Made by a program: the position numbers and the translations under genes. Source: a virus. Taken from it: a stretch of DNA of 49,786 bases. The first letter of the stretch is position 1. The number at the start of each line of letters is the position of its first letter. The stretch lies in the IMG/VR virus record IMGVR_UViG_3300029951_000040, positions 1 to 49,786 of that record. One strand, 5' to 3'. This document shows positions 6,530 through 41,643 of the stretch, one piece after another. The notes beneath the pieces were generated by a model. The model was not told the DNA's origin, made no database searches, and saw only the letters and a list, made by a program, of their open reading frames with translations.

Positions 6530-7716
6530 TGCCAACCATTTCCGCCAACGGCGCCACGCCGACCAGCCTGTCCGACCTGAATGCCGCACTGATCGCGGTG
6601 GCGACGAGCATCGTCCCGGACTTGACGGCCAACCTGCCGGCGACGTTGATCGAGGACGTGTCAAGCACCGATACCGGTGCCTGCTCGATCATGGATCAGG
6701 CGGCTGTCGATCTGGTGAATTCGATCTCGCCGCTGACAGCGAATCCGTTCATCGTGGTGCAGCTTGGCGCGGTCTATGGTGTGCAGCAGGGTGTTGGATC
6801 GAACACGAGTGTCCTCGTCGCATTCACCGGAACGCCCGGGTTCGTCATCAACATCGGTTTCCTTGTTGGGGATGGCACGTACCAGTACGCGGTTCAAGAT
6901 CCTGTCATCATCCCTTCGGGCGGCACGACAGCGGCGGTCTTTTGTCTAGCGACCGTTTCTGGATCCTGGGCTGTGCCGTCGAGCACCGTGACCCAGCGCG
7001 TCACCAGCGTTCCGTCCACCATCGCGCTGACGTTTACGAACCCATCGACCGGAATTCCGGGTGCGGCGGCGCAATCGATCCAGTCTTACCAGGCGCAGGT
7101 CATCCAGGCTGGGCAGGCAGTGTGCACTGGATCGCCCCAGGCTGTGAAGACGCAACTTGAGAATGTCTCAGGCGTGCAGTCACGACTGATCTCGTTCCGG
7201 CAGACTGGCGGCGGCTGGCAGGCCATCGTTGGCGGCGGCGATCCGTACTCTGTCGCGGGTGCGCTCTACCTGTCGATTCCCGATATCAACGTCCTCCAGC
7301 CGGCTGCAACGATGGGTACGACGGAGACCGTCGCCATCAACGATTTCCCGGACACGTACAACGTCACGTATGTGATCCCCGATCAAGAGGCTGTGGGCAT
7401 CTCAATCACCTGGAACACCATCGCGAGCGCGAATTTCGTTGCGCCGGCCATCGTCACGGCAGCGGTGCAGCCGGCGATGGTGGCGTATATCAACAGCATC
7501 ACCGTGGGTCAGGCCATCAGCCTCCTGCAGCTTCAGGACGCGTTCATCACGGCGGTGGCCGGATTCATCCCGGAACAGAGCCTATCAAAGCTCCAGTTCG
7601 TCGTCACGATCAACGGCACCATTGTGGCGCCCGCAACCGGTAGCATCCTGATCCCCGGAGACCCGGAGAGCTTCTTCTTCACCTCGACTGCGAACATCGC
7701 GGTTAACCAGGGCTAG
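6529..7716 (+). CDS. Baseplate wedge protein, gpJ-like
   Basis: A 395-residue protein. Its N-terminus (DLNAALIAVATSIVPDLTANLP... QAAVDLVNSI) matches the pattern of Baseplate_J/gp47-family wedge proteins, and the downstream gene has the character of gpI, reproducing the J-I order of P2- and Mu-like baseplates. The middle part is beta-rich and ends in a domain preceding GSILIPGDPESFF. It would build the wedge ring around the hub and carry the fibre network. Confidence 0.7.
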   Translation: MPTISANGATPTSLSDLNAALIAVATSIVPDLTANLPATLIEDVSSTDTGACSIMDQAAVDLVNSISPLTANPFIVVQLGAVYGVQQGVGSNTSVLVAFTGTPGFVINIGFLVGDGTYQYAVQDPVIIPSGGTTAAVFCLATVSGSWAVPSSTVTQRVTSVPSTIALTFTNPSTGIPGAAAQSIQSYQAQVIQAGQAVCTGSPQAVKTQLENVSGVQSRLISFRQTGGGWQAIVGGGDPYSVAGALYLSIPDINVLQPAATMGTTETVAINDFPDTYNVTYVIPDQEAVGISITWNTIASANFVAPAIVTAAVQPAMVAYINSITVGQAISLLQLQDAFITAVAGFIPEQSLSKLQFVVTINGTIVAPATGSILIPGDPESFFFTSTANIAVNQG

Positions 7717-14743: not shown

Positions 14744-16540
14744 ATGAAAAAGTACCTAACCCTGCTTCTCGCTTTCTTTTGCGCTATTTCTGGCGCGCAG
14801 ACGTTCCCCGTCCAGAACCTCCAGGTCAATGGAACCTCCTCGCTCGGCGGCACGATCTCGGGCGCCGGGCTGAAGGGCCTCAAGGCCAGCGTGACCAACT
14901 TGGCGGCCCTGCGTTCGCTGAATCACCTGTATTACAGCCAAGCGTCCACGCAAGGCTACTCCACGCCTAGCGACAACGGCGGCGCGAGTTACTACCTCCT
15001 GGCGAATTCAACGGGCTCGTATGTGGACGACGGCGGCTCCATCATCGTCGCCAATGACGGCGCGGTGTGGGGATTGGTCAATGCGGGCTACGTCACGCCG
15101 GAGCAGTTCGGCGCCGACAATACCGGGACTGCGCCGGCCGCAAATGCCATCAACGGGGCGATCCAGTTCCTGGCCCTCGGTTCATGCTGCGGATCGAGCG
15201 GCAACAATGGCGGGACGGTGAACTTCGGGTACGGGACGTTCAACGTGGGCAGCGGCACCGTTCTGCTTCCATCGAACATCACGCTCAATCTCCAGGGTGC
15301 TTATCTGAATGGCAATGGCTCGAACACGCTGATCGCCTCGGCGGCCATCATCGGCGGCGTCCTGACGAACATCGTTCCGCAGTATGGCACCGGCCCTCAG
15401 GGGGCGGGGACGCAGTTCGTGGGCAACGCCCAGGTGATCGGCGGGCACCTCGGGAATGCTGCGATCTGCCTGCGTGGACACCGGCTCAATTATGGAGCGA
15501 ACATCCAGGGCGTGACGTTCAATCCGACGTGCGCTCAGGCCTGGCTGACGACCCATTCATGGGGATTGTCGCTATACGAAAATACGGTGTATGCGCCCGC
15601 CGTGATGCAAGACTTTGTCGACTGGACGAGCATCCAATCGAACAGTTTCGAAGGCCCCGGCAGCACGACGGCCGGCGCTGCGGGCATCGGCTTGACGATC
15701 ACGACAGGCGGCTATGGCGGTTCGTACTCGGCCGCGATTCGCAGCAATGGTTTTCATCACTGGCGCGTCGCGCTGACGTTCACCTCGCAGGGTGATGACA
15801 CGATCATCGAAGGCAACCACTTCGAAGACAACGCGAATTTGATCGTCGGAGATGCGAACACGCGTGACTCATTCCGCATCAAAAACAATTGGTTGAAAGC
15901 CAATCTCGCGACTGCCGCTGCCGTCACGGCCATCAATTTCGCCGCAATCAACAATTCTGAAATCGGCCCGAACTTTTTCAGCACGGATGGTGCGTCCACC
16001 TGGGCGTCCGAAATGACGCTCAACACGACAAGCACCTACGGAAATTTGATCTATGTTCCGTACTCGCTGACAAGCACCGTCGACACGTCGCTTTACGCCA
16101 TCAGTGACAACAATACCCTGAACTTCTACGGTGGTTCGAACAATGCGACGACCGTTCAACCGACTGTCGTTCCGGTGTCTGGTTCATCGGGTTACACGGT
16201 TGAAAAGTACATCGCGACGTATCATCGCATCGCGAACACGATTCCGAATTGCGTGGTGACGTACACCGGAACAACGGCGACCATTGACACGCAGATTCCG
16301 TCCGACGCGGACGGGGTCGAACAAATGGTGATGTTCCAATTCAAAGCGGTCGGGACTACTACCTACATCATTTCTGGATTCTTCAACCGCCTCAATGTGT
16401 CTTCCTTGATCAGCTTCGACAAGATCGCCGGCACTGCCGGGCCGACTCCGACGATCTCGAACAACGGGGGATTTGCAAGAATTACCATCACTGGATTGGC
16501 TTCGGGCGGAAATATCGTCGGAGAAGTCAAGGCAATGTAA
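14744..16540 (+). CDS. Tailspike-like beta-helix protein with a signal-peptide-like N-terminus
   Basis: A 598-residue protein. Residues 1-19 (MKKYLTLLLAFFCAISGAQ) look exactly like a Sec signal peptide with an AxA-like end. After it come residues 20-100 that read like a fibre-attachment module (LKASVTNLAALRSLN, DNGGASYYLL, DDGGSIIVANDG, VTPEQFGAD), the common head-binding entry of pectate-lyase-type tailspikes, then a long right-handed beta-helix (repeated G-N-N-x-I/V-x pattern) to about 430 and a beta-rich end. Tailspikes of this type bind and often cleave surface polysaccharide. The hydrophobic leader is odd for a virion protein made in the cytoplasm. Confidence 0.7.
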   Translation: MKKYLTLLLAFFCAISGAQTFPVQNLQVNGTSSLGGTISGAGLKGLKASVTNLAALRSLNHLYYSQASTQGYSTPSDNGGASYYLLANSTGSYVDDGGSIIVANDGAVWGLVNAGYVTPEQFGADNTGTAPAANAINGAIQFLALGSCCGSSGNNGGTVNFGYGTFNVGSGTVLLPSNITLNLQGAYLNGNGSNTLIASAAIIGGVLTNIVPQYGTGPQGAGTQFVGNAQVIGGHLGNAAICLRGHRLNYGANIQGVTFNPTCAQAWLTTHSWGLSLYENTVYAPAVMQDFVDWTSIQSNSFEGPGSTTAGAAGIGLTITTGGYGGSYSAAIRSNGFHHWRVALTFTSQGDDTIIEGNHFEDNANLIVGDANTRDSFRIKNNWLKANLATAAAVTAINFAAINNSEIGPNFFSTDGASTWASEMTLNTTSTYGNLIYVPYSLTSTVDTSLYAISDNNTLNFYGGSNNATTVQPTVVPVSGSSGYTVEKYIATYHRIANTIPNCVVTYTGTTATIDTQIPSDADGVEQMVMFQFKAVGTTTYIISGFFNRLNVSSLISFDKIAGTAGPTPTISNNGGFARITITGLASGGNIVGEVKAM

Positions 16541-16553
16541 TGGAGGGTTGACT

Positions 16554-16790
16554 ATGAGCATCACCGACCGCGAGAATGAAGGAAATGCCCAATCAGGCAT
16601 TTCAGAACGCAAAATGCCCATCGATCCGAACAGCAAGGCCGTCAAGGATGCGCTGAAAGAGGGGCTTCAGGAGTGGCTGGACGGCATGTTCGCGGAGTTC
16701 GGGAGGTGGACGATGCGCGGCCTTGCCGCCATGGCAATTGCCGGGGTCGTCTACCTGGCTCTTCTAGCGAACGGCTGGAAGCACTCCTAG
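16554..16790 (+). CDS. Small membrane protein before the endolysin
   Basis: A 78-residue protein with a strong TGGAGGG ribosome binding site. The N-terminal 50 residues are polar and charged, and one transmembrane helix follows at about 55-73 (GLAAMAIAGVVYLALLANG). Position at the head of the lysis cassette suggests a holin, antiholin or pinholin-like role, but one helix after a long polar head does not match a specific holin class. Function is not established. Confidence 0.6.
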   Translation: MSITDRENEGNAQSGISERKMPIDPNSKAVKDALKEGLQEWLDGMFAEFGRWTMRGLAAMAIAGVVYLALLANGWKHS

Positions 16791-24095: not shown

Positions 24096-25316
24096 TCAAA
24101 ATGGGAGGGCGGTCGCGTCGAGTACGTGAGCCGCAAGCTTGCGCTTGATCGCCTCGAACTGCGTCGGCGTCCAGAACTTCGCAGCCTTCTCGGTGCGAGT
24201 CCACTGGAAGCCCAGGGTATTGACGATGAAGTCAGCCGTGACGGCGAAGCCGAACGCCTCGGTCATCTTGCCGATATTGATCCAGGCGTGTTCAGGATCG
24301 ATATCAGCGATTGGGCCGATTACCTCCAGTGGATAGGTTCCGATATTGGTGGCGATCCGGCCATCAGGTTGTCGCCATGATCCACCCGGCGGGATCTTCA
24401 CACGCTCGAAAACCTCCAGGCTGGATGACACGATGGACTCGGCGACAGCAGACGCCACGGGCGCACCGGTCTGGCCGAGCTTATGTAGGTCGGCCTCGGC
24501 CTGAACGCGCTCGCGCTGGCTGGCCTCGTCCTGGTTGCGGCGCTCGGCTGCCGCAGCCTCGTCGGCGCGCTTCTTCTCGGCAGCGGCCTCGCGGTCGCGT
24601 GCATCCTGTTCGGCGCGCAGTCGTTGCAGCTCGGCGCGCTCCTTTGCCAGCGCTTCCGCTTCAGCCTTGCGCGCCGCATCTTCGGCTTCGCGCTCGATTG
24701 CAGCCTGGTGCATGTCGCGCAACTTCTCGCGTGTTTCGTCAACAGCGATCTTGCCCAGGGCGGAGTAGTCGCGATCCAGCCCAAACCCTTCGGCCTCATC
24801 GGTATGCAGCGTCACGATTGCGCCGCTGATCACGTTGGCGGACTTGCCCTGCACGGCGAACGCGCGATTGCGGATAGCGGCAAGCGCGAGGCTCTGCGAC
24901 TCGCGGCGCTTCACTTCGGCAAGGCGCTTTTCTTCGGCCTCGGCGGCTTTGCGGAATTCCTCGACCTTGATCTGCTCGTGATAGTTTGCTTCGCCGGCTT
25001 CCAGACGCTCCGTGATTGCGGCGGCGCGCGCATCGATGTCCTTGCCGAGCGCCAGAACAGGCGCCTTGCCGGCCTTGCGTGCCTTCTCCGTGGCAATACG
25101 GGGCTCACGCCATGCGGCGCGGCCGGCGATGGCTTCTTTCATGCCCTTCGTGGTCGTCACATCACACGCGAGATTCGACGGGTGCGCCGCCTCCAGGTCA
25201 GCGAAGCCTGCTTCGATCTTTTCGAATTCAACAAGTGCGCCGTCGATCTGTTCGAGGCTCTTACGGATCGCGACCGCCGTAGCATTCGGTGCTTGGTGTT
25301 CGATAGCTTCAGTCAT
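24096..25316 (-). CDS. Coiled-coil protein next to RecT, DUF1351-like
   Basis: A 406-residue protein. Residues about 15-95 read like the start of DUF1351-type proteins (KSLEQIDGALVEFEKI, then ARAAAITERLEAGEA), 110-275 is a long charged Ala/Glu/Arg/Lys coiled coil, and the last about 100 residues form a compact domain (GSWRQPDGRI, HAWINIGKMTEAFGFAVTADF, FWTPTQFEAIKRKL). It overlaps recT by four bases; DUF1351 genes often accompany RecT-type annealing systems, so it is likely an accessory recombination protein. Confidence 0.65.
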   Translation of the reverse strand: MTEAIEHQAPNATAVAIRKSLEQIDGALVEFEKIEAGFADLEAAHPSNLACDVTTTKGMKEAIAGRAAWREPRIATEKARKAGKAPVLALGKDIDARAAAITERLEAGEANYHEQIKVEEFRKAAEAEEKRLAEVKRRESQSLALAAIRNRAFAVQGKSANVISGAIVTLHTDEAEGFGLDRDYSALGKIAVDETREKLRDMHQAAIEREAEDAARKAEAEALAKERAELQRLRAEQDARDREAAAEKKRADEAAAAERRNQDEASQRERVQAEADLHKLGQTGAPVASAVAESIVSSSLEVFERVKIPPGGSWRQPDGRIATNIGTYPLEVIGPIADIDPEHAWINIGKMTEAFGFAVTADFIVNTLGFQWTRTEKAAKFWTPTQFEAIKRKLAAHVLDATALPF

Positions 25317-26305
25317 TTCGTGCCGCCCTTCTTCAGTTGTTGTTCCTTGGCGCGCGCCTCTTCGGCGAGCCGCTTCAGGGTGTTTCGGAGTTTGGATCGG
25401 GCCTTACCGAAGATGCCCCACAGCAGCATCTTCTCGTCGCTGTCGGTGATCCATTCAACTTCCTCGTATGCGCCCATTTCGTCGCCGGACTCGAACTTCT
25501 GGATGCAGGCCATCGCAGCGTTGTGGATGACCTGTTCGCGAGGGATTTCCTTCGGCTCGCCATCGATCACCTGGGGCGCGGCGAGCGCAGCCGGCGACTC
25601 GAATGTGATTCCCTCGCCAGCCGTGGTGTTGAGGTGGTGTACGGCGGTGTCCAGGCGTTCGGTCTTGGGCCAAGTTTTGTAGCCACGCTTGATGACCGTT
25701 TTCTTGATCATCTCGCCTTCGTCCGTGTTCCATGGGCAGCGTTTCGTGTTGTCCTTCACGAACGCCTGCCAGCCGTCCGAACGCTCGCGCACGTCCCACA
25801 CTTCGCTGGCGGTCATCGTCGTCGTCAGATAGTCTCCATCACGCGTCTTGACCACGACGTAGACCCCGACAATTTCCCCGCGTTCTTTCGAGAACGGATT
25901 GCGCCCATGCTTCGGGGGCTGGTCAAATCCGCTCAACTCGAACGAATCGTTCAGGTAGACGATTTCAGCCTGTCCCCAAAGGATCGATCCCGACTGGATC
26001 GCAATGTCCAGCAGGCCCATGTAGCTGATGACCAGCGTGATTCCGCCCTTGCGCGGCACGAGGTATGCCTGCTTGCGCGCCGGGTTCAGGCTGACGCCAA
26101 TCGCTGCGATGTTGGTCACAGCATCGCGCACGCTCTGCGGGTTCTGCTTCGCGATCTTGAGGCAGTAGTCCGAATTCGTGATGATCTGGATGGCAAATTC
26201 AGCTTCCCGCGCGAAGACAATGGACTTGTCCACGCAGACCCGCTCGAAAGCCGGCGCGAGGTCGAGAATCGTCTTCTCGGCGAATTGGATGAGATCGCCG
26301 CTCAT
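25313..26305 (-). CDS. recT: RecT-type single-strand annealing recombinase
   Basis: A 330-residue protein with the RecT family pattern: an N-terminal segment (IQFAEKTILDLAPAF), then DAVTNIAAIGVSLNPARKQAYLVPR, YMGLLDIAIQSGSI, a QAEIVY(LN)DSFE stretch and GYKTWPKTERL. It anneals complementary single strands for recombination-dependent replication, genome circularisation or repair. No dedicated exonuclease partner of the RecE/YqaJ type is obvious in the window. The C-terminus is a Lys/Glu-rich helix. Confidence 0.85.
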   Translation of the reverse strand: MSGDLIQFAEKTILDLAPAFERVCVDKSIVFAREAEFAIQIITNSDYCLKIAKQNPQSVRDAVTNIAAIGVSLNPARKQAYLVPRKGGITLVISYMGLLDIAIQSGSILWGQAEIVYLNDSFELSGFDQPPKHGRNPFSKERGEIVGVYVVVKTRDGDYLTTTMTASEVWDVRERSDGWQAFVKDNTKRCPWNTDEGEMIKKTVIKRGYKTWPKTERLDTAVHHLNTTAGEGITFESPAALAAPQVIDGEPKEIPREQVIHNAAMACIQKFESGDEMGAYEEVEWITDSDEKMLLWGIFGKARSKLRNTLKRLAEEARAKEQQLKKGGTK

Positions 26306-26586
26306 GCGTCATCCCCATTGACCCAGGCCGTCGCAACAACCCAGCCTGCCTCATGCGTGGCGATGGCTTTGCTCGAATGCTGCGCGTGTTCGAACGTCAC
26401 CGTGACATCATCGCGAACTTGTCGGTCATGGAAATGCGGATTGCCAACGCAGGCCGATTCGATGATCTGGCGGGCGGCTGTCGGGCCGTACATGGGGGCA
26501 TAGGTTAGGGATCGCATAGGAGTATTTTCCGTTGTTTGATGCTTGATCTGGAGCAAGGTCTTGGATCGTATCGATGGGGAATTCAC
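26302..26586 (-). CDS. Hypothetical protein upstream of recT
   Basis: A 94-residue protein from a GTG at 26586, chosen because a GGGGAGG ribosome binding site lies eight bases before it. An internal ATG at 26517 (MRSLTYAPMYG) has no such site. It overlaps recT by four bases. Contents include DDVTVTFEHAQHSSKAIATHEAGWVV. The ribosome binding site itself can pair with CCTTCC in the structured RNA just upstream (26624-26619), which would hide it. Function unknown. Confidence 0.55.
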   Translation of the reverse strand: MNSPSIRSKTLLQIKHQTTENTPMRSLTYAPMYGPTAARQIIESACVGNPHFHDRQVRDDVTVTFEHAQHSSKAIATHEAGWVVATAWVNGDDA

Positions 26587-26597
26587 CCAAAGGCCTC

Positions 26598-26970
26598 CCC
26601 TACCCGTTCTTAGGGCAAGGAAGGATTCACCCCACCGAAGTGGACAGACATGCTAAGGATCGAGTCAACTCCCTTAGTCCCGGACGTGTCTGTGCGGCCA
26701 GTCCCACGGATTCATCGGTGTTGCACCGGCCACAAGTTCTGGCTACCGTGTCGCGGCTTTCAGCCTTCCGCTCCATCTGGTCTACTTTCCGGCGCCCGGA
26801 TTGCTGGGGCATTGACTCGTCACTGACTGCACGACCGGATGCGAGAACGAAAAAGAGCCAAGGGCTCGATGCTCTCTCAGGGCGGGAACTCTGAGTGGAT
26901 TTTCATCCGTAGAACATCGAGCCCTTGGCTCTCTGCTTGACACTCTCAGGTTCCCGCCCTGTGTCAGTAC
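26598..26970 (-). ncRNA. Structured RNA 1: nested double pseudoknot RNA, paralogue of the 32971-33345 RNA
   Basis: No plausible gene fits this gap. On the - strand, P1 (26961-26950) pairs with 26889-26878 (12 bp), and P2 (26931-26915) pairs with 26871-26855 (17 bp, perfect). The order P1-P2-P1'-P2' is a pseudoknot, with hairpin P3 GGAT-GAAA-ATCC (26908-26897, GNRA loop) in between. Further on are a GCGG/CCGC stem around AGGCTGAAAGC (26771-26752), an 8-bp long-range pair (26819-26812 with 26668-26661), an ACAGACA/TGTCTGT stem, CCAC-TTCG-GTGG, and a last hairpin that includes the ribosome binding site of the 26586 gene. A T5 run follows P2'. Helix order, P3 and several motifs match the + strand RNA at 32971. 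Confidence 0.7.
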
Positions 26971-29379: not shown

Positions 29380-30780
29380 ATGAAAGAACCCATGGGCGCT
29401 AGCTATGAGCAATTCCTTGCAAACAAGGTCAAAACCGATCCAAGTACCGGTTTAGCCGATCCGCTTCCCGCGCTTCCCGCGCAGCTTTTCCCGCACCAGC
29501 GCGACATTGTGCGATGGGCGCTCAAGCGCGGCCGCGCTGCCATCTTCGCGCAAACGGGGCTTGGAAAGTCGTTCATGGAACTGGCCTGGGGATCGGCCAT
29601 CCATACAGCGACTGCTGGCAATGTCCTGCTCCTGACGCCGCTGGCGGTAGCCGGCCAGATGGTGCGCGAGGCTGAGAAGTTTGGACTCGCCGCCAAGCAA
29701 TGCGCGACTCAGGCTGACGTCGAGCCAGGCCTGACGGTGACGAACTACGAGAAATTGCACCACTTTGACCGCACGCAGTTCACGGCCGTAATTCTGGACG
29801 AGAGCAGCATCCTCAAGGCATTCGACGGCAAGACCCGGACGATGTTGATCGAGTGGTGCAAGGACATTCCGTACCGACTCTGCGCTACAGCAACGCCCGC
29901 CCCGAACGACTTCACGGAGCTTGGCAATCACGCCGAATTCCTGGGGGTCATGAGCGTTACCGGGATGCAGGCGACTTTCTTCACGCACGACGGTGGCGAC
30001 ACCAGCATCTGGCGCCTGAAGGGTCATGCGGAAGAAATCTTTTGGGAATGGATGTGCTCATGGTCGGTTCTCCTGCGCCGTCCGTCTGATCTCGGATACC
30101 CCGACGATGGCTATGACTTGGAGCCGCTGCACCAAGTCGAGCACATTGTCACGGTCGATGGCGCGCCCGCGCTCACGCTTGGGGAGAGATTGACTGCGCG
30201 CCGTGAAAGCATCGGCCCGCGCGTAGACAAGGCCATCAGCATCATCGCCGAAGAGGACGCAGCCGGCCGCAGTAAGCCATGGGTCATCTGGTGTAATCTC
30301 AACACCGAGCAGGACACGCTGGCGGAGATTTTCGGCGACCGATGCATATCCATCTTCGGAAGCCTGAAGGACGAGGAAAAAGAGAAGCGCCTCAAGCGTT
30401 GGCTGGCCGGCGAGGCCCCGATCCTCCTGAGTAAGCCGCGCATCATCGGGTTCGGCCTGAATCTGCAGCTGTGCGCAGACACCATTTTTGTGGGCCTGAA
30501 CGACAGCTTCGAGCAGGTCTATCAGGCGGTTCGCAGATTCTGGCGATTCGGGCAAACCAGGCCTGTGACAGCCCACTTCATCGCCGCATCAACCGAAGGC
30601 GCCGTACTCGCCAATCTGCGCCGCAAAGAAGCCGAGGCCGAACGCATGGGCGCGGCCATGGTGGCTCAAATGGCCGATCTGTCCAGCGACCTCGTGCATG
30701 GCTCAACGCGCCAGAGCGAAGTCTATTCCCCGAACGTCCCCATGAACCTGCCCGACTGGCTGAAAGAAACCAATGAATGA
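29380..30780 (+). CDS. SNF2-type DEAD/DEAH helicase
   Basis: A 466-residue protein with all core helicase motifs: Walker A AQTGLGKS (57-64), motif II LDESS (139-143), motif III ATATPAPND (169-177), and motif VI QAVRRFWRFGQTRPV (382-396), which is the SNF2 Q..gR..R.GQ..pV form. The middle (180-290) holds a family-specific insertion. It is followed, with an eight-base overlap, by a DNA methyltransferase; this helicase-methylase pair is common in phages and recalls the fused DarB of phage P1, which protects phage DNA from type I restriction. A replication or fork-remodelling role is the alternative. Confidence 0.85.
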   Translation: MKEPMGASYEQFLANKVKTDPSTGLADPLPALPAQLFPHQRDIVRWALKRGRAAIFAQTGLGKSFMELAWGSAIHTATAGNVLLLTPLAVAGQMVREAEKFGLAAKQCATQADVEPGLTVTNYEKLHHFDRTQFTAVILDESSILKAFDGKTRTMLIEWCKDIPYRLCATATPAPNDFTELGNHAEFLGVMSVTGMQATFFTHDGGDTSIWRLKGHAEEIFWEWMCSWSVLLRRPSDLGYPDDGYDLEPLHQVEHIVTVDGAPALTLGERLTARRESIGPRVDKAISIIAEEDAAGRSKPWVIWCNLNTEQDTLAEIFGDRCISIFGSLKDEEKEKRLKRWLAGEAPILLSKPRIIGFGLNLQLCADTIFVGLNDSFEQVYQAVRRFWRFGQTRPVTAHFIAASTEGAVLANLRRKEAEAERMGAAMVAQMADLSSDLVHGSTRQSEVYSPNVPMNLPDWLKETNE

Positions 30781-31825
30781 AATCGCAACCAACCTCAAGA
30801 CCATCGATCAAGTTATCTCCGAGGACTACGCCATCTATAACGGCGACTCCTGCGAACTGATCCGTGCAATCCCGGACAACAGCATTCATTACGGCATCCA
30901 CTCGCCGCCGTTCGAGGGGCTCTACAAGTTCACGAACAGCGACCGCGACGTGAGCAACAACGAAGGCCCCTCGTTTTGGGAGCATTACGCTTTCCTGATC
31001 CGTGAGCTTCTGCGCGTATCAATGCCAGGTCGCCTGCACAGCGTGCATGTCATGCAGCTGCCGGCCACGAAGACGCGCGAGGGATTCATCGGGATGCGAG
31101 ATTTCCGGGGCGATGTGATTCGCGCCTACCAAGCCGCTGGATGGATCTTGCACAGCGAGATTTGCATCTGGAAAGACCCGGTTGTCGCGCAGCAGCGAAC
31201 GAAGTCGATCCGCCTGCTTCACAAGCAATTGTGCAAGGACTCTGCGCTCAGCGGCCAGGGATTGGCCGACTACATCGTGAGCTTCAGAAAGCCTGGTATC
31301 AACGAAACGGCAATCAGCGGCGGATTCGAGCAGTACATCGGAGACGGCGTGGACGTCTCGCGCGAGGCATACAAGGCTCAGGCAGACGTCCTGGTGGCCG
31401 AAGGAAAGACTGTGTGGCCCTACAGTCAATGGGTATCGATCATGACGTGGCAGCGCTACGCCTCGCCAGTGTGGAGCGACATTCGGCAGACGCGAACGCT
31501 TCAGTACCGGAGCGCCCGCGAGGAAAAGGATGAGCTTCACATCTCACCTCTTCAGCTCGACGTGATCGAGCGATGCGTTGATATGTGGAGCAATCCCGGC
31601 GAGACGGTTTTGACACCGTTTTTGGGCATCGGCTCCGAAGTATGGTGCGCGGTCAACCAGGGCCGGCGCGGGGTTGGTTTTGAACTGAAGGCCAGCTACT
31701 TCCGCCAAGCCGTCATCAACATCGAAAAACTGATGGCAGAGCGCCGACCCCCGGTTCATATCGATGCCGATACGGATGACGAAGTGGTGCGCCATGCCGA
31801 TGAGCGGCAACTGAGCATTTTCTAG
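30773..31825 (+). CDS. DNA methyltransferase (N4-cytosine/N6-adenine type)
   Basis: A 350-residue protein. The catalytic motif IV is HSPPF (residues 43-47), of the (D/S)PP(Y/F) type, near the N-terminus, and the AdoMet-binding motif I is TPFLGIGS (281-288) near the C-terminus, giving the beta-class order. After it comes VGFELKASYFRQA. SPP(Y/F) is usual for N4-cytosine methylases but is also seen in N6-adenine enzymes. It would protect phage DNA from host restriction or alter gene control; no cognate nuclease gene is visible. The ATG overlaps the helicase end. Confidence 0.85.
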   Translation: MNEIATNLKTIDQVISEDYAIYNGDSCELIRAIPDNSIHYGIHSPPFEGLYKFTNSDRDVSNNEGPSFWEHYAFLIRELLRVSMPGRLHSVHVMQLPATKTREGFIGMRDFRGDVIRAYQAAGWILHSEICIWKDPVVAQQRTKSIRLLHKQLCKDSALSGQGLADYIVSFRKPGINETAISGGFEQYIGDGVDVSREAYKAQADVLVAEGKTVWPYSQWVSIMTWQRYASPVWSDIRQTRTLQYRSAREEKDELHISPLQLDVIERCVDMWSNPGETVLTPFLGIGSEVWCAVNQGRRGVGFELKASYFRQAVINIEKLMAERRPPVHIDADTDDEVVRHADERQLSIF

Positions 31826-31955: not shown

Positions 31956-32786
31956 ATGCTCCACCAAATCAAACACCGCTTCTCGGGCGCCGTTCTTTTC
32001 GAGTGCGAAGTCCCGGACGAAATCGCCAGCGGTCTGCGGACGCGACATGCACTGGAGAGGGCGGATGAAACGGGCGCTGACCTCAGGGGCGCTGTCCTCA
32101 CGGGCGCTGACCTCACGGGCGCTGACCTCACGGGCGCTGTCCTCACGGACGCTGTCATCAGGGGCGCTGACCTCATGGGCGCTGACCTCACGGGCGCTGA
32201 CCTCAGGGGCGCTGACCTCACGGGCGCTGTCCTCACGGACGCTGTCCTCAGGGGCGCTGTCCTCACGGGCGCTGTCCTCACGGACGCTGACCTCAGGGGC
32301 GCTGACCTCAGGGGCGCTGACCTCACGGGCGCTGACATCACGGGCGCTGTCCTCAGGGGCGCTGACCTCACGGGCGCTGTCCTCACGGGCGCTGACGCTG
32401 GCAGGCGGGCGAAAAACGAACAGTCCATCGAGAGCCTGGACAAGGTGAGGGCCATCATCATAGATGACCGCACGCGTCTGGAAATGAGACATTGGCACGG
32501 AGATAATGAATGGAAGGCCCGTACCTGCGCCGAGGAAACGCTCTGCGGCACAACGCACTGCATGGCCGGCTGGCTGCAAGTCTGCTCGACCGACCCTGAA
32601 ATTCGCGCCATGGATACGCTGACGGCTGGCGTTCTGGCTGCGCCGGTCGCCGCCAAGATGTTTTTCCGGGATGGTGAGGCGGCCTTCAAGTGGCTGGAAT
32701 CGCGCCAGTACGTGGCAGACATTGCGGAACAAGAGCGCCGTTCGGCGGAACGCAAGGCGCGGAAGGCTGCAGAGGGCCAATCCTGA
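31956..32786 (+). CDS. Pentapeptide-repeat protein with a unique C-terminal domain
   Basis: A 276-residue protein. Residues 1-38 form a short N-terminal domain (MLHQIKHRFSGAVLFECEV), 39-145 hold 21 perfect five-residue units of the form GA(D/V)L(T/R), which should build a right-handed square beta-helix, and 146-276 form a helical domain with two CxxxxC-like segments (ARTCAEETLCGTTHCMAGWL), an AAPVAAKMFF helix and a charged tail. Some pentapeptide proteins (Qnr, MfpA) mimic DNA and protect gyrase; others are scaffolds. The gene has its own promoter, operator and terminator and is flanked by 100 and 590 bases of non-coding sequence. The ORF on the other strand is a shadow of the repeat. Confidence 0.8.
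   Translation: MLHQIKHRFSGAVLFECEVPDEIASGLRTRHALERADETGADLRGAVLTGADLTGADLTGAVLTDAVIRGADLMGADLTGADLRGADLTGAVLTDAVLRGAVLTGAVLTDADLRGADLRGADLTGADITGAVLRGADLTGAVLTGADAGRRAKNEQSIESLDKVRAIIIDDRTRLEMRHWHGDNEWKARTCAEETLCGTTHCMAGWLQVCSTDPEIRAMDTLTAGVLAAPVAAKMFFRDGEAAFKWLESRQYVADIAEQERRSAERKARKAAEGQS
32071..32397. repeat. 15-bp tandem repeat array encoding the pentapeptides
   Basis: About 21.8 units of the type GGCGCTGACCTCACG or GGCGCTGTCCTCAGG. Many units are identical at DNA level, which indicates recent expansion by slippage or unequal recombination. Copy number is likely variable, and assembly of this part may be unreliable. Confidence 0.9.
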
Positions 32787-32934: not shown

Positions 32935-32964
32935 TTGACATGCCCCGGCAGTAGGCGCAAGAAT
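32935..32964 (+). promoter_or_regulatory. Predicted promoter of structured RNA 2
   Basis: TTGACA (32935-32940), 18-base spacer, AAGAAT (32959-32964). The start would be near 32971, six bases before P1 of the structured RNA. No operator dyad is present, unlike at the protein-coding early promoters. Confidence 0.65.
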
Positions 32965-32970
32965 ACAGGC

Positions 32971-33345
32971 ATCCGAGGGTGCCTCCAAGGATGAGCATCG
33001 AGCCCAGACTCATGCATTCAGCCATCGCAAGATGGAAACAGGGGAGGCACCCCCTGGAATGCAGCAGTCTGGGCTTTCTGCGTTCTGGATTGGCTTGGTG
33101 CCTCAAGCGTCGTTACACACGATCCGGGCCTTAGCGAGAGCGGGAGGATGAAAGCTCAGACCGCGAGCGCGCCGAAGACTCCAGCGCGAGTTAGACCCTG
33201 ATGCAAGGGGTTGTGGAGTCAAGTCCTGCGCGGCATCGCGCGTAGGGCCGAAGCTGTGTGTCCTGTTCGACGGAACTAGCTGGATCGGGCCTCGACTCAC
33301 CTCTCTTGGTGGGTAGGGCCTTCCTTCGCACAGGAGCCTTTCTCT
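32971..33345 (+). ncRNA. Structured RNA 2: nested double pseudoknot RNA
   Basis: This gap holds no convincing gene. P1 32977-32986 pairs with 33043-33052 (10 bp); P2 33001-33019 pairs with 33057-33075 (17 pairs around a 2x2 internal loop); P3 is CCATC-GCAA-GATGG (33022-33035, GNRA loop). The order P1-P2-P3-P1'-P2' is a nested pseudoknot. Further elements are GCTTG/CAAGC (33093-33108), ACACAC and CGATCC pairing at distance with 33256-33261 and 33282-33287, GCGG...AGGATGAAAGC...CCGC (33140-33164), GACTCCA/TGGAGTC (33177-33220), GCGCG-GCAT-CGCGC (33228-33241), CACC/GGTG (33299-33312), and a final hairpin (GGC...TCCT/AGGA...GCC) followed by TTTCTC. Promoter before and terminator-like end suggest a free RNA of about 370 nt. 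Confidence 0.75.
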
Positions 33346-33374: not shown

Positions 33375-33776
33375 GTGAAGATTTGGACGGATGGGGGGTG
33401 TTTAAACAACGGCACCCCAGAAGCAATAGGCGCGTGGGCCTTCGTTACGGAAGATGGCTTCGAGAGTTCAGGGCAACTGTTCGGATCAACGAACAACCGG
33501 GCTGAACTTCAAGCTGTCATCGAGGCCCTTCGCTATGCGCGAAGCCTCGGGAAGTTTGCTGGCGTGGAAATCTACACCGACAGCCAGTTGACTCAGTTCT
33601 GTGCGCAGGGAAAGTGGCGGCGCAGGGCGAATCTTGATCTTTGGGCCAACTTCGATGCTGCCGCTCGCGGGATGCGTGCTCAGTTTCATTGGGTCAAGGC
33701 GCATTCCGGCATCCCTGAGAACGAGCGCGCCGACCAGCTTTGCACCATGGAAATTCATCGGGGGATCGAGGCATGA
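33375..33776 (+). CDS. Ribonuclease HI
   Basis: A 133-residue protein from a GTG at 33375 with an AAAGGA ribosome binding site. The four acidic active-site residues are Asp6 (WTDGG), Glu44 (NNRAELQA), Asp69 (YTDSQ) and Asp120 (NERADQL), with His110 in VKAHSG. It removes RNA from RNA-DNA hybrids, for example primers or R-loops used in replication start. It is shorter than E. coli RNase HI and lacks its basic protrusion. The gene starts about 30 bases after structured RNA 2. Confidence 0.9.
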   Translation: MKIWTDGGCLNNGTPEAIGAWAFVTEDGFESSGQLFGSTNNRAELQAVIEALRYARSLGKFAGVEIYTDSQLTQFCAQGKWRRRANLDLWANFDAAARGMRAQFHWVKAHSGIPENERADQLCTMEIHRGIEA

Positions 33777-34966: not shown

Positions 34967-35214
34967 CAGGTGGCAACCGCACCAAGGTAACGCTGCTGAG
35001 CGGCATCATTACCGATACCTGGGATGATGCCTGGAAGCTGGAATGCCTTCATCGAAATGAGCACGTCCAGGCGATCTTGCGCATGGTCGGCAAGCAGTAT
35101 CGCGGCGCGCGCGAAGCCTACTGCGCTGATGTCGGAATCCGCGAGGGCGCAGAGGCTGAGCGCCGTCTGCGCGAGCGCGTGAAGGTGGTTTGGCCGAAGG
35201 GGATCGACAAGTGA
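34963..35214 (+). CDS. Hypothetical protein
   Basis: An 83-residue protein starting MTGGNRTKVTLLSG, mostly helical with many charged residues (REAYCADVGIREGAEAERRLRER). It overlaps the HTH gene and the NinB gene by four bases. No known domain. Confidence 0.5.
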   Translation: MTGGNRTKVTLLSGIITDTWDDAWKLECLHRNEHVQAILRMVGKQYRGAREAYCADVGIREGAEAERRLRERVKVVWPKGIDK

Positions 35215-38897: not shown

Positions 38898-40185
38898 GTG
38901 CCAACGATCATCCTTCCGACCCTCCATCCTGGACAGGTCAAAATTTACGAAGGGAGAGCGCAGCTGAACGTAGTCTGTTGCGGACGCAGGTTTCGGAAAA
39001 ACAAAACTGATGTCTGCCATTGCAGGCAATGCCGCAGCCAAGGGCCGCAAAGCCGCCATCTTTACGCCTGAGCACAAGCAGTGGTCGGAGCCTTATGACG
39101 AGCTGCTGGAGATCCTTCAGCCCATCAAGCGCAAGGCGAACAAGAACGAGGCCACCATCCGCACAACAACGGATGGATTGATCGACTTCTGGGCGACCAC
39201 TGACAACCCGCTGGCTGGGCGTGGTCGGGAGTACCACGTTGGATGCATGGATGAGGCCGCATTCTCGAAGAACATCCAGATGACGCAAATTTGGACGCGC
39301 GCCATCAAGCCTACCCTGCTGACGACGCGCGGAAGTTTCTGGCTGTTCTCGACGCCGAACGGGATTGACCCGGACAATTTCTTCTACCAAGCGTGGCACG
39401 ACCCTGAAATGGGGTTCAAGCAATTCCACGCGCCGACTGCGAACAACCCCTATGTTCCGCCGGATGAGCTTGAAAAGGAGAGGCTGAAGCACCACCCGCT
39501 GACATGGAAGCAGGAATTCCTTGCCGAATTTGTGTCCTGGGATTCGTCAACTTTCTTCAAGCTGGACTATTTCATGGGCGCCGATGGCTTGCCGGTGAAC
39601 TATCCGAACAAGTGCGACTATGTATTTGCAGTGCTTGACTGTGCCGCAAAATCGGGCACGGAGCATGATGGCACGGGGGTTCTGTATTGCGCCTTCAGTC
39701 AATACCACGGAGACAAGCTCGTCTGGCTGGATTACGAACTCCACAGCGTAGACGCGGCGATGTTGGAATATCTGGCGCCCAGCATCATGAAGCGATGCGA
39801 TGAATTGGCTGCTCAGTGTGGCGCGCGCCGGGGCTCCATTGGACTATTCGTCGAGGATGCGGCTGGTGGGACGGTACTCATTCAGCAGGGGCAGGCCAAA
39901 GGCTGGCCGGTGACGCCGATCCCATCAAAGCTCATGGCGAAAGGGAAGGATGAGCGAGCCATGATCGCGGGCGGCCCAGCCTATCGAGGGGAGTGCAAAA
40001 TTAGCCGCCACGCCTTCGACAAGGTGATCCCATGGAAGGGCCGAAACTTGAACCATCTAGTGCACCAGGTTGTGACATTCAGGATTGGCGACAAGGATGC
40101 CAGCAAGCGGGCGGACGACCTGTTGGACACGGCCTGTTATTCAATCGCGCTCACACTTGTGAGCGAAGATGCTGTGGGCGACTAG
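38898..40185 (+). CDS. Terminase large subunit, frameshifted inside the Walker A motif
   Basis: The reading frame starts at a GTG (38898, PTIILPTLHPGQ). At 38991-38993 the codon TTT is followed by CGG; moving +1 (TTC GGA AAA ACA AAA CTG ATG) restores GRRFGKTKLM, the ATPase Walker A motif. The joined protein has 428 residues. Walker B is VGCMDEAAF, the coupling motif is LFSTPNG, and the RuvC-like nuclease has VLDCAAKSG, FVEDAAGG and DDLLDTA. Without the shift only a truncated form from 39010 lacking the motif would be made. Either one base is wrong, or TTT C is a true +1 shift site, or the gene is damaged. Confidence 0.85.
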
Positions 40186-40221: not shown

Positions 40222-41643
40222 ATGGCATCCATCGAAATCACCGGCTCTGGCCTGACATCCCCGCTCCAGCAGATCATGGGCTGCGACGAGATCGAGCCTG
40301 GCTCACCGGCTGGATACTCGATGTGCAAGGCGCTGTGGGCAAATCTCGGCATCGCGGCCAAGCTTGTCGAGAAGCCGGTGGCGCTGGCCCTGAGCCAGAA
40401 GCGGCTGATCAATGTGCCGTGCGCCATCGAGGAGAAATTCGTGGAGGCGTTCAACCAGGAGTGGGAACGCCTGGAATGCACGAATCACATCCGAGACCTG
40501 CACCACATCGCGCGCGCATATGGCGCCTCGGCGCTGATCGTGGGCTGGCCGGAAGTGGCAACTACGGAGCCCATCGACCTCACGTCCATTGCCGTGACGG
40601 AGGGTCTGTACTTCAACACGTATGACCCGCTTAACCTGTCGGGTTCCATCGTCACGAACCAGAACCCGAACGCGCCCGATTTCCAGAAGCCGCGGCGCAA
40701 CATCACGGCGGCCGGGCAGCCCTACCATCCGAGTCGGGCTGTCGTCGTGTTCAATGGCACGCCGATATATCTGGATTATCAGGCGTCCTCGTTCAGCTTC
40801 TCTGGCCGATCCGTTTTCCTGCGCGCCCTCTTTCCCCTGAAGTCATACATCCAGACCATGCTGGTCGATGACATGATCAGCATCAAAGCCGGCCTCATCG
40901 TCGCCAAGATCAAGCAGGGCAGTTCGATTGCCAACAAGATCGCTGAGGCGGTGTCGGGCCTGAAGCGCGCCATGATCAAGATCGCTGGCGCCGGCAACGT
41001 GTTGACCATCGACCCCTCCGAAGACATCGAGTCGATTAACCTCACGAATTTGGATGGGCCGTACAAACTGGCGCGTGACAACATCATTGCCAACATCGCC
41101 ACGGGCGGTGACGTGCCTGCAATCCTGATCAAGGACGAGTCCTACGCCGAAGGCTTCAGCGACGGCGATGTCGATATGATGGCGGTCGTCCAGTACATCG
41201 ACGGCATTCGAGAGCAGATGCAGTCAGCCTGCGCGTTCTTCGACAAGATCGTGATGGCCCGCGCGTGGAACAAGGGATTTTACGAGGCAGTGAAGGGCGA
41301 ATATCCGGACGAAGTGGAGGCGACCTACGAGCTGTTCTACTCGAACGCCAAGCATCGATTCAAGGCCAAGTGGCCTACGTTGATCAAGGAAAAGGAATCC
41401 GAGACTGTCAAGCGCAACGCCGAGAAACTGAAAGCCATGTCGGATGTCATGAAGGTTCTTCTGCCGTCTCTGGATCCGGAGAACAAGGCCCGTTTGGTGG
41501 CCTGGTTCGTGGCGGCACTCAACGACATGAAGGACGTTTTCTCGGGCGAAATGGAATTCGACGAGCAGGCGCTTGCCGACTACGAGCCACCTGCGCCGAC
41601 GATGGGTGGCGCCCCAGGTGAGGGCGGCGGCGGTGGCGAGTAA
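40222..41643 (+). CDS. Portal protein (DUF1073 type)
   Basis: A 473-residue protein. The DUF1073 pattern is visible: KPVALALSQKRL, HHIARAYGASALIVG, PSRAVVVFNGTPIYLDYQ, DIESINLTNLDG, and AILIKDESYAEGFSDGD. The portal forms the dodecameric ring at one capsid vertex, serves as the DNA entry channel and joins the tail. The C-terminus is Pro/Gly-rich (APTMGGAPGEGGGGGE). It is followed in the same operon by the MuF-like gene with an overlap. Confidence 0.85.
   Translation: MASIEITGSGLTSPLQQIMGCDEIEPGSPAGYSMCKALWANLGIAAKLVEKPVALALSQKRLINVPCAIEEKFVEAFNQEWERLECTNHIRDLHHIARAYGASALIVGWPEVATTEPIDLTSIAVTEGLYFNTYDPLNLSGSIVTNQNPNAPDFQKPRRNITAAGQPYHPSRAVVVFNGTPIYLDYQASSFSFSGRSVFLRALFPLKSYIQTMLVDDMISIKAGLIVAKIKQGSSIANKIAEAVSGLKRAMIKIAGAGNVLTIDPSEDIESINLTNLDGPYKLARDNIIANIATGGDVPAILIKDESYAEGFSDGDVDMMAVVQYIDGIREQMQSACAFFDKIVMARAWNKGFYEAVKGEYPDEVEATYELFYSNAKHRFKAKWPTLIKEKESETVKRNAEKLKAMSDVMKVLLPSLDPENKARLVAWFVAALNDMKDVFSGEMEFDEQALADYEPPAPTMGGAPGEGGGGGE

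Follow-up and report, generated by a model that had tools for sequence, protein, structure and literature searches.

Lambda-like phages use the pR'-tR' leader switch to hold back groups of genes. Phage HK620 illustrates the arrangement, with annotated pR' and tQ and, directly after tR', the leader sequence GGGGCTTTTTCATTTCTGCAATCCGGTC...GAGCCAGATTG. Several RNAs have been described from such settings: StxS, a processed pR'-tR' RNA of Stx phages, is a useful by-product of termination (PMC7873438); STnc100 and PasD are prophage sRNAs encoded near Q (PMC13192938); and the put RNA of HK022 is ~70 nt long with two stem-loops, putL and putR being placed in two operons (PMC9378689). Here, we describe two structured elements, copies A and B, in a viral DNA of 49,786 nucleotides (IMG/VR record IMGVR_UViG_3300029951_000040, analysed over its whole length and termed the window). 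On balance, we favour the view that each copy serves a phage operon as its 5' leader and has the build of a lambdoid pR'-tR' late leader.

The helix order P1-P2-P3-P1'-P2' is present in both copy A (32977-33078, + strand) and copy B (26961-26854, - strand), as a preliminary description of this DNA had proposed from the sequence, and the junction lengths that it gave agree with ours within 1-2 nt. In copy A, the 5' strand of P1 (GGGTGCCTCC, 32977-32986) forms 10 bp with the 3' strand (GGAGGCACCC, 33043-33052), which has an alternative pairing in a CAGGGG/CCCCTG hairpin (33039-33056). The 5' strand of P2, the putative terminator stem, consists of GAGCCCAGACT plus GCATTC (33000-33019), P3 is the hairpin CCATC-GCAA-GATGG (33022-33035), and the 3' strand of P2 (33056-33078) extends with the T-rich tract TTTCTGCGTTCT to 33084, together resembling a weak tR'-like terminator. 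The minus-strand copy B has its P1 strands at 26961-26945 and 26895-26878 (12 bp in the earlier version, 17 bp if one bulge is allowed) and its P3 hairpin GGAT-GAAA-ATCC at 26908-26897; the 18-bp P2 stem joins 26932-26915 to 26871-26854, followed by the T tract CTCTTTTTCGTTCTC to 26843 as a tR'-like candidate intrinsic terminator in an arrangement that matches the tR' of HK620. Folding z-scores against shuffles are -3.4 for copy A and -5.3 for copy B. There are no sense-strand ORFs of at least 60 aa inside copy A, and the one of 61 aa in copy B (26812-26627) has no counterpart there. The helix order recalls HDV-like ribozymes, a resemblance that had been remarked on before, but the layout differs: P1 is 10-17 bp rather than ~7, P3 is GNRA-closed, no P4 or P1.1 was seen, and there is no Rfam match.

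Indeed, the Rfam scan that had been suggested as a check returned nothing credible for either copy (at the gathering cut-off and at E<=10, HDV, GOLLD and ROOL models included), the STnc100 covariance model (RF02076) had no match in the window, and blastn of both copies against phages and of copy B against plasmids likewise gave no matches. Homologues were sought by pattern scans of IMG/VR with the block GCGG-N-AGG-N-TGAAAGC, which occurs in both copies together with CCTTCCTT, as the preliminary description had stated. Three distinct homologues were recovered, namely L129/L149 (B-type, from the same contig), L120 (A-type, with L126 identical to it in the leader region) and L022 (A-type). A loose pattern scan gave two true matches, the rest being mostly chance; 17 matches from a genome scan with the pattern were all judged chance on inspection, the pattern had no match in 398 genomes, and a search for RNase H neighbours found none. 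The comparison thus covers five distinct leaders (A, B, L129, L120 and L022), three of them from partial contigs, with B and L129 being close downstream of P2'.

Promoter-like sites lie just upstream of both copies, in keeping with the promoter predicted earlier. That of copy A is a sigma70-like TTGACA-18-AAGAAT (32935-32964, +; 10/12 matches; shuffles, mean 0.1), from which a start site is predicted at ~32971; that of copy B, TTGATT-18-TATCCT (27004-26975, -), is weak and falls below the scan cut-off. Across the five leaders, a sigma70-like promoter directly upstream is clear in A, L129, L120 and L022 and weak in B. P2' is then followed by CTTTCTGCGTTCT (A), CTCTTTTTCGTTCT (B), CTTTGTTCGTTT (L129), GTTTTGCTTTT (L120) or GTTTTCCTTTT (L022), such that in all five a T tract is positioned ~110-170 nt from a sigma70-like promoter with 17-18 nt spacing. 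Stem and T tract are thus found in 5/5 leaders, strong in B and weak in A, and at this distance past the promoter the pair looks, as a sequence, like an intrinsic terminator. The terminator-like end that had been placed at ~33345 was not called by the + strand scan, and the T-tract element is P2' itself. In copy B, the scan called a short hairpin that folds locally within P2' (GAGCC-CTT-GGCTC, followed by TTTTTCGTTC), the long P2 stem going uncalled because its loop is too large for the scan; the local hairpin could be the terminator in place of the long-range stem, to which it is an alternative.

We read P1 as pairing of the 5' end of the predicted transcript with the large terminator loop. 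For each leader, the best duplex that the segment preceding P2 can form with the loop of P2 was set against 1000 dinucleotide shuffles, which gave P values of 0.003 (A), <0.001 (B), <0.001 (L120), 0.06 (L022) and 0.10 (L129)—i.e., P<=0.003 in three of the five leaders and weak pairing in L022 and L129—these values being only indicative because the segment boundaries were set by hand. The best natural test of whether P1 and P2 are retained comes from L149, which shares 98.6% identity with the window from P2' onwards and has no detectable similarity to it over ~300 nt upstream; though dissimilar there, it keeps a 20-bp P2 and a 7-bp P1. Two candidates were discarded: the first P1 of L120 (CTGGGGCGTG/CACGCCCCAG) was nested in the terminator loop, with its leader strand pairing elsewhere, and the first P1/P2 reading in L022 belonged to a separate element.

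Past the terminator-like stem, copy A has a first domain (33093-33135) in which helix H1 (33093-33099/33129-33135) encloses CACGATCCGGG, then a conserved hairpin GAGCGGGAGGATGAAAGCTCAGACCGCGA (33138-33166), helix H3 (33177-33183/33214-33220) with an inner hairpin (33177-33220), and a distal leader (33221-33345) with a CACC/GGTG hairpin and CCTTCCTT at 33319-33326. A, L022 and L120 are alignable over the first ~130 nt past the terminator, and in this alignment of few (three) sequences 97.1% of the cells of the 3' core are paired, with seven pairs changed on both sides (four in H1 and three in H3). None of 500 shuffles gave as good a covariation score, and slid controls had 33-46% paired. The earlier proposal of a structured RNA that Rfam lacks, and whose homologues in other phage contigs covary, is supported. 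A covariance model of the A-type (R2) matched only the short hairpin of copy B; its second match in the window (6462-6338, -; E=4e-4) lies antisense in an operon whose genes overlap and was judged chance, as were two weak matches in 369 genomes. In copy B, the helix after the putative terminator (CATCCGGTC/GACCAGATG, 26774-26841, -) has a C.A mismatch at its centre, like its counterpart in the late leaders of enterophages, and is followed by a conserved hairpin GAGCGGAAGGCTGAAAGCCGCGA (26751-26773, -). A terminal hairpin CCTTCCTTGCCC/GGGTAGGGGAGG (26594-26624, -) hides the Shine-Dalgarno of the ORF that comes next (94 aa), and may thereby add a second control at the level of translation.

The resemblance to lambdoid pR'-tR' leaders (HK620, the Klebsiella phages RothC and Mulock, and others) lies in a promoter, a nearby terminator and then a T tract, followed by a GC(A)ATCCGGTC...ACCAGAT helix and more structured RNA ahead of an operon; HK620 has the same order as the window leaders. 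Copy B carries this motif directly after its T tract, repeats the HK620 leader sequence given above as GGCTCTTTTTCGTTCTCGCATCCGGTC...GACCAGATG, and with ACCAGAT closes the same C.A-mismatched helix as the enterophage post-terminator element. The alignment CTTTTTCGT.TCT.GC.ATCCGGTC of copy B is better than shuffles at P=0.003 (against L217) and 0.014 (against HK620). As a covariance model of 11 enterophage elements (R1) has no significant match at copy A or B, our claim extends to a common architecture and a common motif but not to membership of one family, and from the sequences any homology of copy B with lambdoid leaders would be only motif-level. The enterophage element was found in 42 INPHARED records and, on inspection, accounts for most of the matches listed from a further IMG/VR scan; in the annotated records inspected it usually comes after Q and before tRNA or lysis genes, whereas in Lastavirus records (L215, L222) it comes after lysis genes instead. 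There are also differences: enterophage terminators have short loops without the P1 pseudoknot, the read-through element has another interior, the tRNA or sRNA cargo is not the same, and the modules of the window belong to middle and leftward early operons, unlike the classical late leader. No Q antiterminator was found in the window with the PF03589 and PF06530 profiles. In the L149 record (G003 914-1069, -), a 174-aa frame has a weak, below-cut-off match to Phage_antitermQ (PF06530, 12.5 bits) and is a candidate antiterminator.

Some further noncoding elements of these records deserve mention in their own right. An L022-leader search gave matches in 102 phage records, mostly to a second element in L022, GTGGTGAATGCGCAGGCTGATG...ATCAGCRCCGGCCACCAC, which in HK620 lies between the annotated pR' and tQ. 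A separate RNA element, GTGGTGAATGCGCAGGCTGATG...GCCGGAGATCAGCRCCGGCCACCAC, occurs in L022 (6354-6190, -), L211 (3500-3590), L021, L182, L200, L209 and L212 and in many INPHARED phages; it has a likely GCTGAT/ATCAGC kissing pair and no Rfam report where scanned, and its outline resembles STnc100. Many of 971 phage records match another noncoding stretch of the HK620 leader (15816-15996; L211 3220-3400), virulent Salmonella phages of the Felixounavirus type and others among them; the matches are mostly unannotated, and parts of the stretch look tRNA-like.

Copy A is upstream of an RNase H gene, the first to follow it (33375-33776, +; PF00075, E=4e-24; PHROG 531), and nin-like genes with NinB at 35190, and not directly before lysis genes; the terminase is at 39010 and the portal at 40222. 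Copy B heads a leftward early operon of the 94-aa ORF (26302-26586, -) and then recT (25313-26305). Between the copies are helicase and methyltransferase genes (29380-31825) and a pentapeptide protein gene (31956-32786). Only the L022 and L120 leaders come just before terminase genes, and control of a lysis or late operon is not seen for copies A and B. What recurs in A, B, L129, L120 and L022 is the order of promoter, long hairpin with T tract, structured RNA and same-strand operon; the free-standing nested-pseudoknot class of the preliminary description is not supported, since P2 has a tR'-like T tract and all located homologues are upstream of same-strand genes. A related record (L150) is without copy B at the syntenic place, and the L149 record, colinear with the window up to 32913, is without copy A and the RNase H gene. 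Each copy is most likely a promoter-attenuator-leader module that controls its operon and is exchanged as a cassette, one or other of the two being absent from related phages, and the copies behave as exchangeable modules starting near the promoter. Two incidental features may be noted: the 50-kb L150 record has three CRISPR-DR4 repeats (RF01317) at 16416-16563, forming a mini-CRISPR array, and an ARAGORN tRNA-Pro (cgg) at 7221-7314 (-) of the window, antisense within a + strand gene region, is probably false, as Rfam makes no call there.

Read most simply, the elements would bring about conditional termination in the leader of an operon, where we infer transcription, termination, and the regulation of termination with its direction. 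The promoter would start the transcript at or just before P1; ~110 nt further on, P2 and its T tract would form an intrinsic terminator stopping most transcripts. The 5' end would pair through P1 with the unusually large terminator loop, and the terminator would therefore be a pseudoknot. Since P1 is able to form while P2' is still to be transcribed, it may either set up or delay the terminator and is the likely point of control. A polymerase that passes the terminator would transcribe the conserved 3' domain as a read-through leader ahead of the operon. Among the roles suggested earlier, a regulatory RNA fits best, while packaging, decoy and structural roles are without evidence. The 5' arms of the two terminator stems, GAGCATCGAGCCC in A (32993-33005) and GGGCTCGATGTTC in B (26924-26912), are complementary and can form a 13-bp helix; only 0.7% of shuffles give a longer one. 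That pairing between the two transcripts opens both terminators at once, as an RNA-only mutual antitermination switch that needs no protein to couple the leftward operon to the rightward one, is however a long shot.

Other explanations bear on the same evidence. The transcript terminated after ~110 nt (P1-P2-P3) might act in trans as an sRNA on phage or host mRNAs in the manner of StxS, or a fragment processed from the leader might do so. StxS has the same genetic position, between promoter and first terminator, and a P1 pseudoknot is not described for it in the part of the source available (PMC7873438). STnc100 too, a match to which (82.6 bits) lies in the L217 leader ~58 nt after the enterophage element, shares with PasD a location in lambdoid leaders or near Q, although neither window copy has an Rfam match and the domain structure differs. 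A 5' end sealed by a pseudoknot and a 3' terminator would give a stable RNA, and this reading is compatible with a leader-terminator; yet the conserved sequence is downstream of the terminator and the 110-nt piece is not conserved in sequence, and we regard the sRNA role as unlikely, if worth keeping in view. We give still less weight to a cis-acting antiterminator in which the conserved 3' domain would bind RNA polymerase and resist later terminators without a phage protein. The presence of two leader copies, one in a leftward and one in a rightward operon, does parallel putL and putR of HK022 (PMC9378689), and the absence from the window of a Q of PF03589 or PF06530 would suit it. However, put is ~70 nt with two stem-loops and no internal terminator, whereas the window copies are ~375 nt with another layout, their 3' domains being ~300 nt, located after the first terminator-like site and only partly shared between A and B.

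That the copies are densely structured and belong to no Rfam family could also be taken to indicate an independent structured RNA—a ribozyme, an ornate GOLLD/ROOL-like RNA or a packaging RNA—with P2 merely terminator-like. This is improbable given the lack of matches to the HDV, GOLLD and ROOL models among others, the T tract after P2' in 5/5 leaders, and a 5' domain not conserved in sequence, unlike a catalytic core. Hardly credible is a leader-peptide gene in which ATGAAAGCTCAR of the A-type core encodes a peptide of 13-17 residues: all three A-type leaders (A, L022 and L120) have a short open frame starting MKAQ, but there is no space for a Shine-Dalgarno, B and L129 have CTG rather than ATG, and the H3 changes are compensatory at the RNA level.

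If the favoured reading of conditional termination in an operon leader is true, lambda-style attenuated leaders would not be tied to the late operon but would serve as exchangeable cassettes before early, middle and late operons, and some of these cassettes would carry a knotted terminator. The findings also indicate that enterobacterial prophages carry, after tR', a large RNA element that is absent from Rfam.
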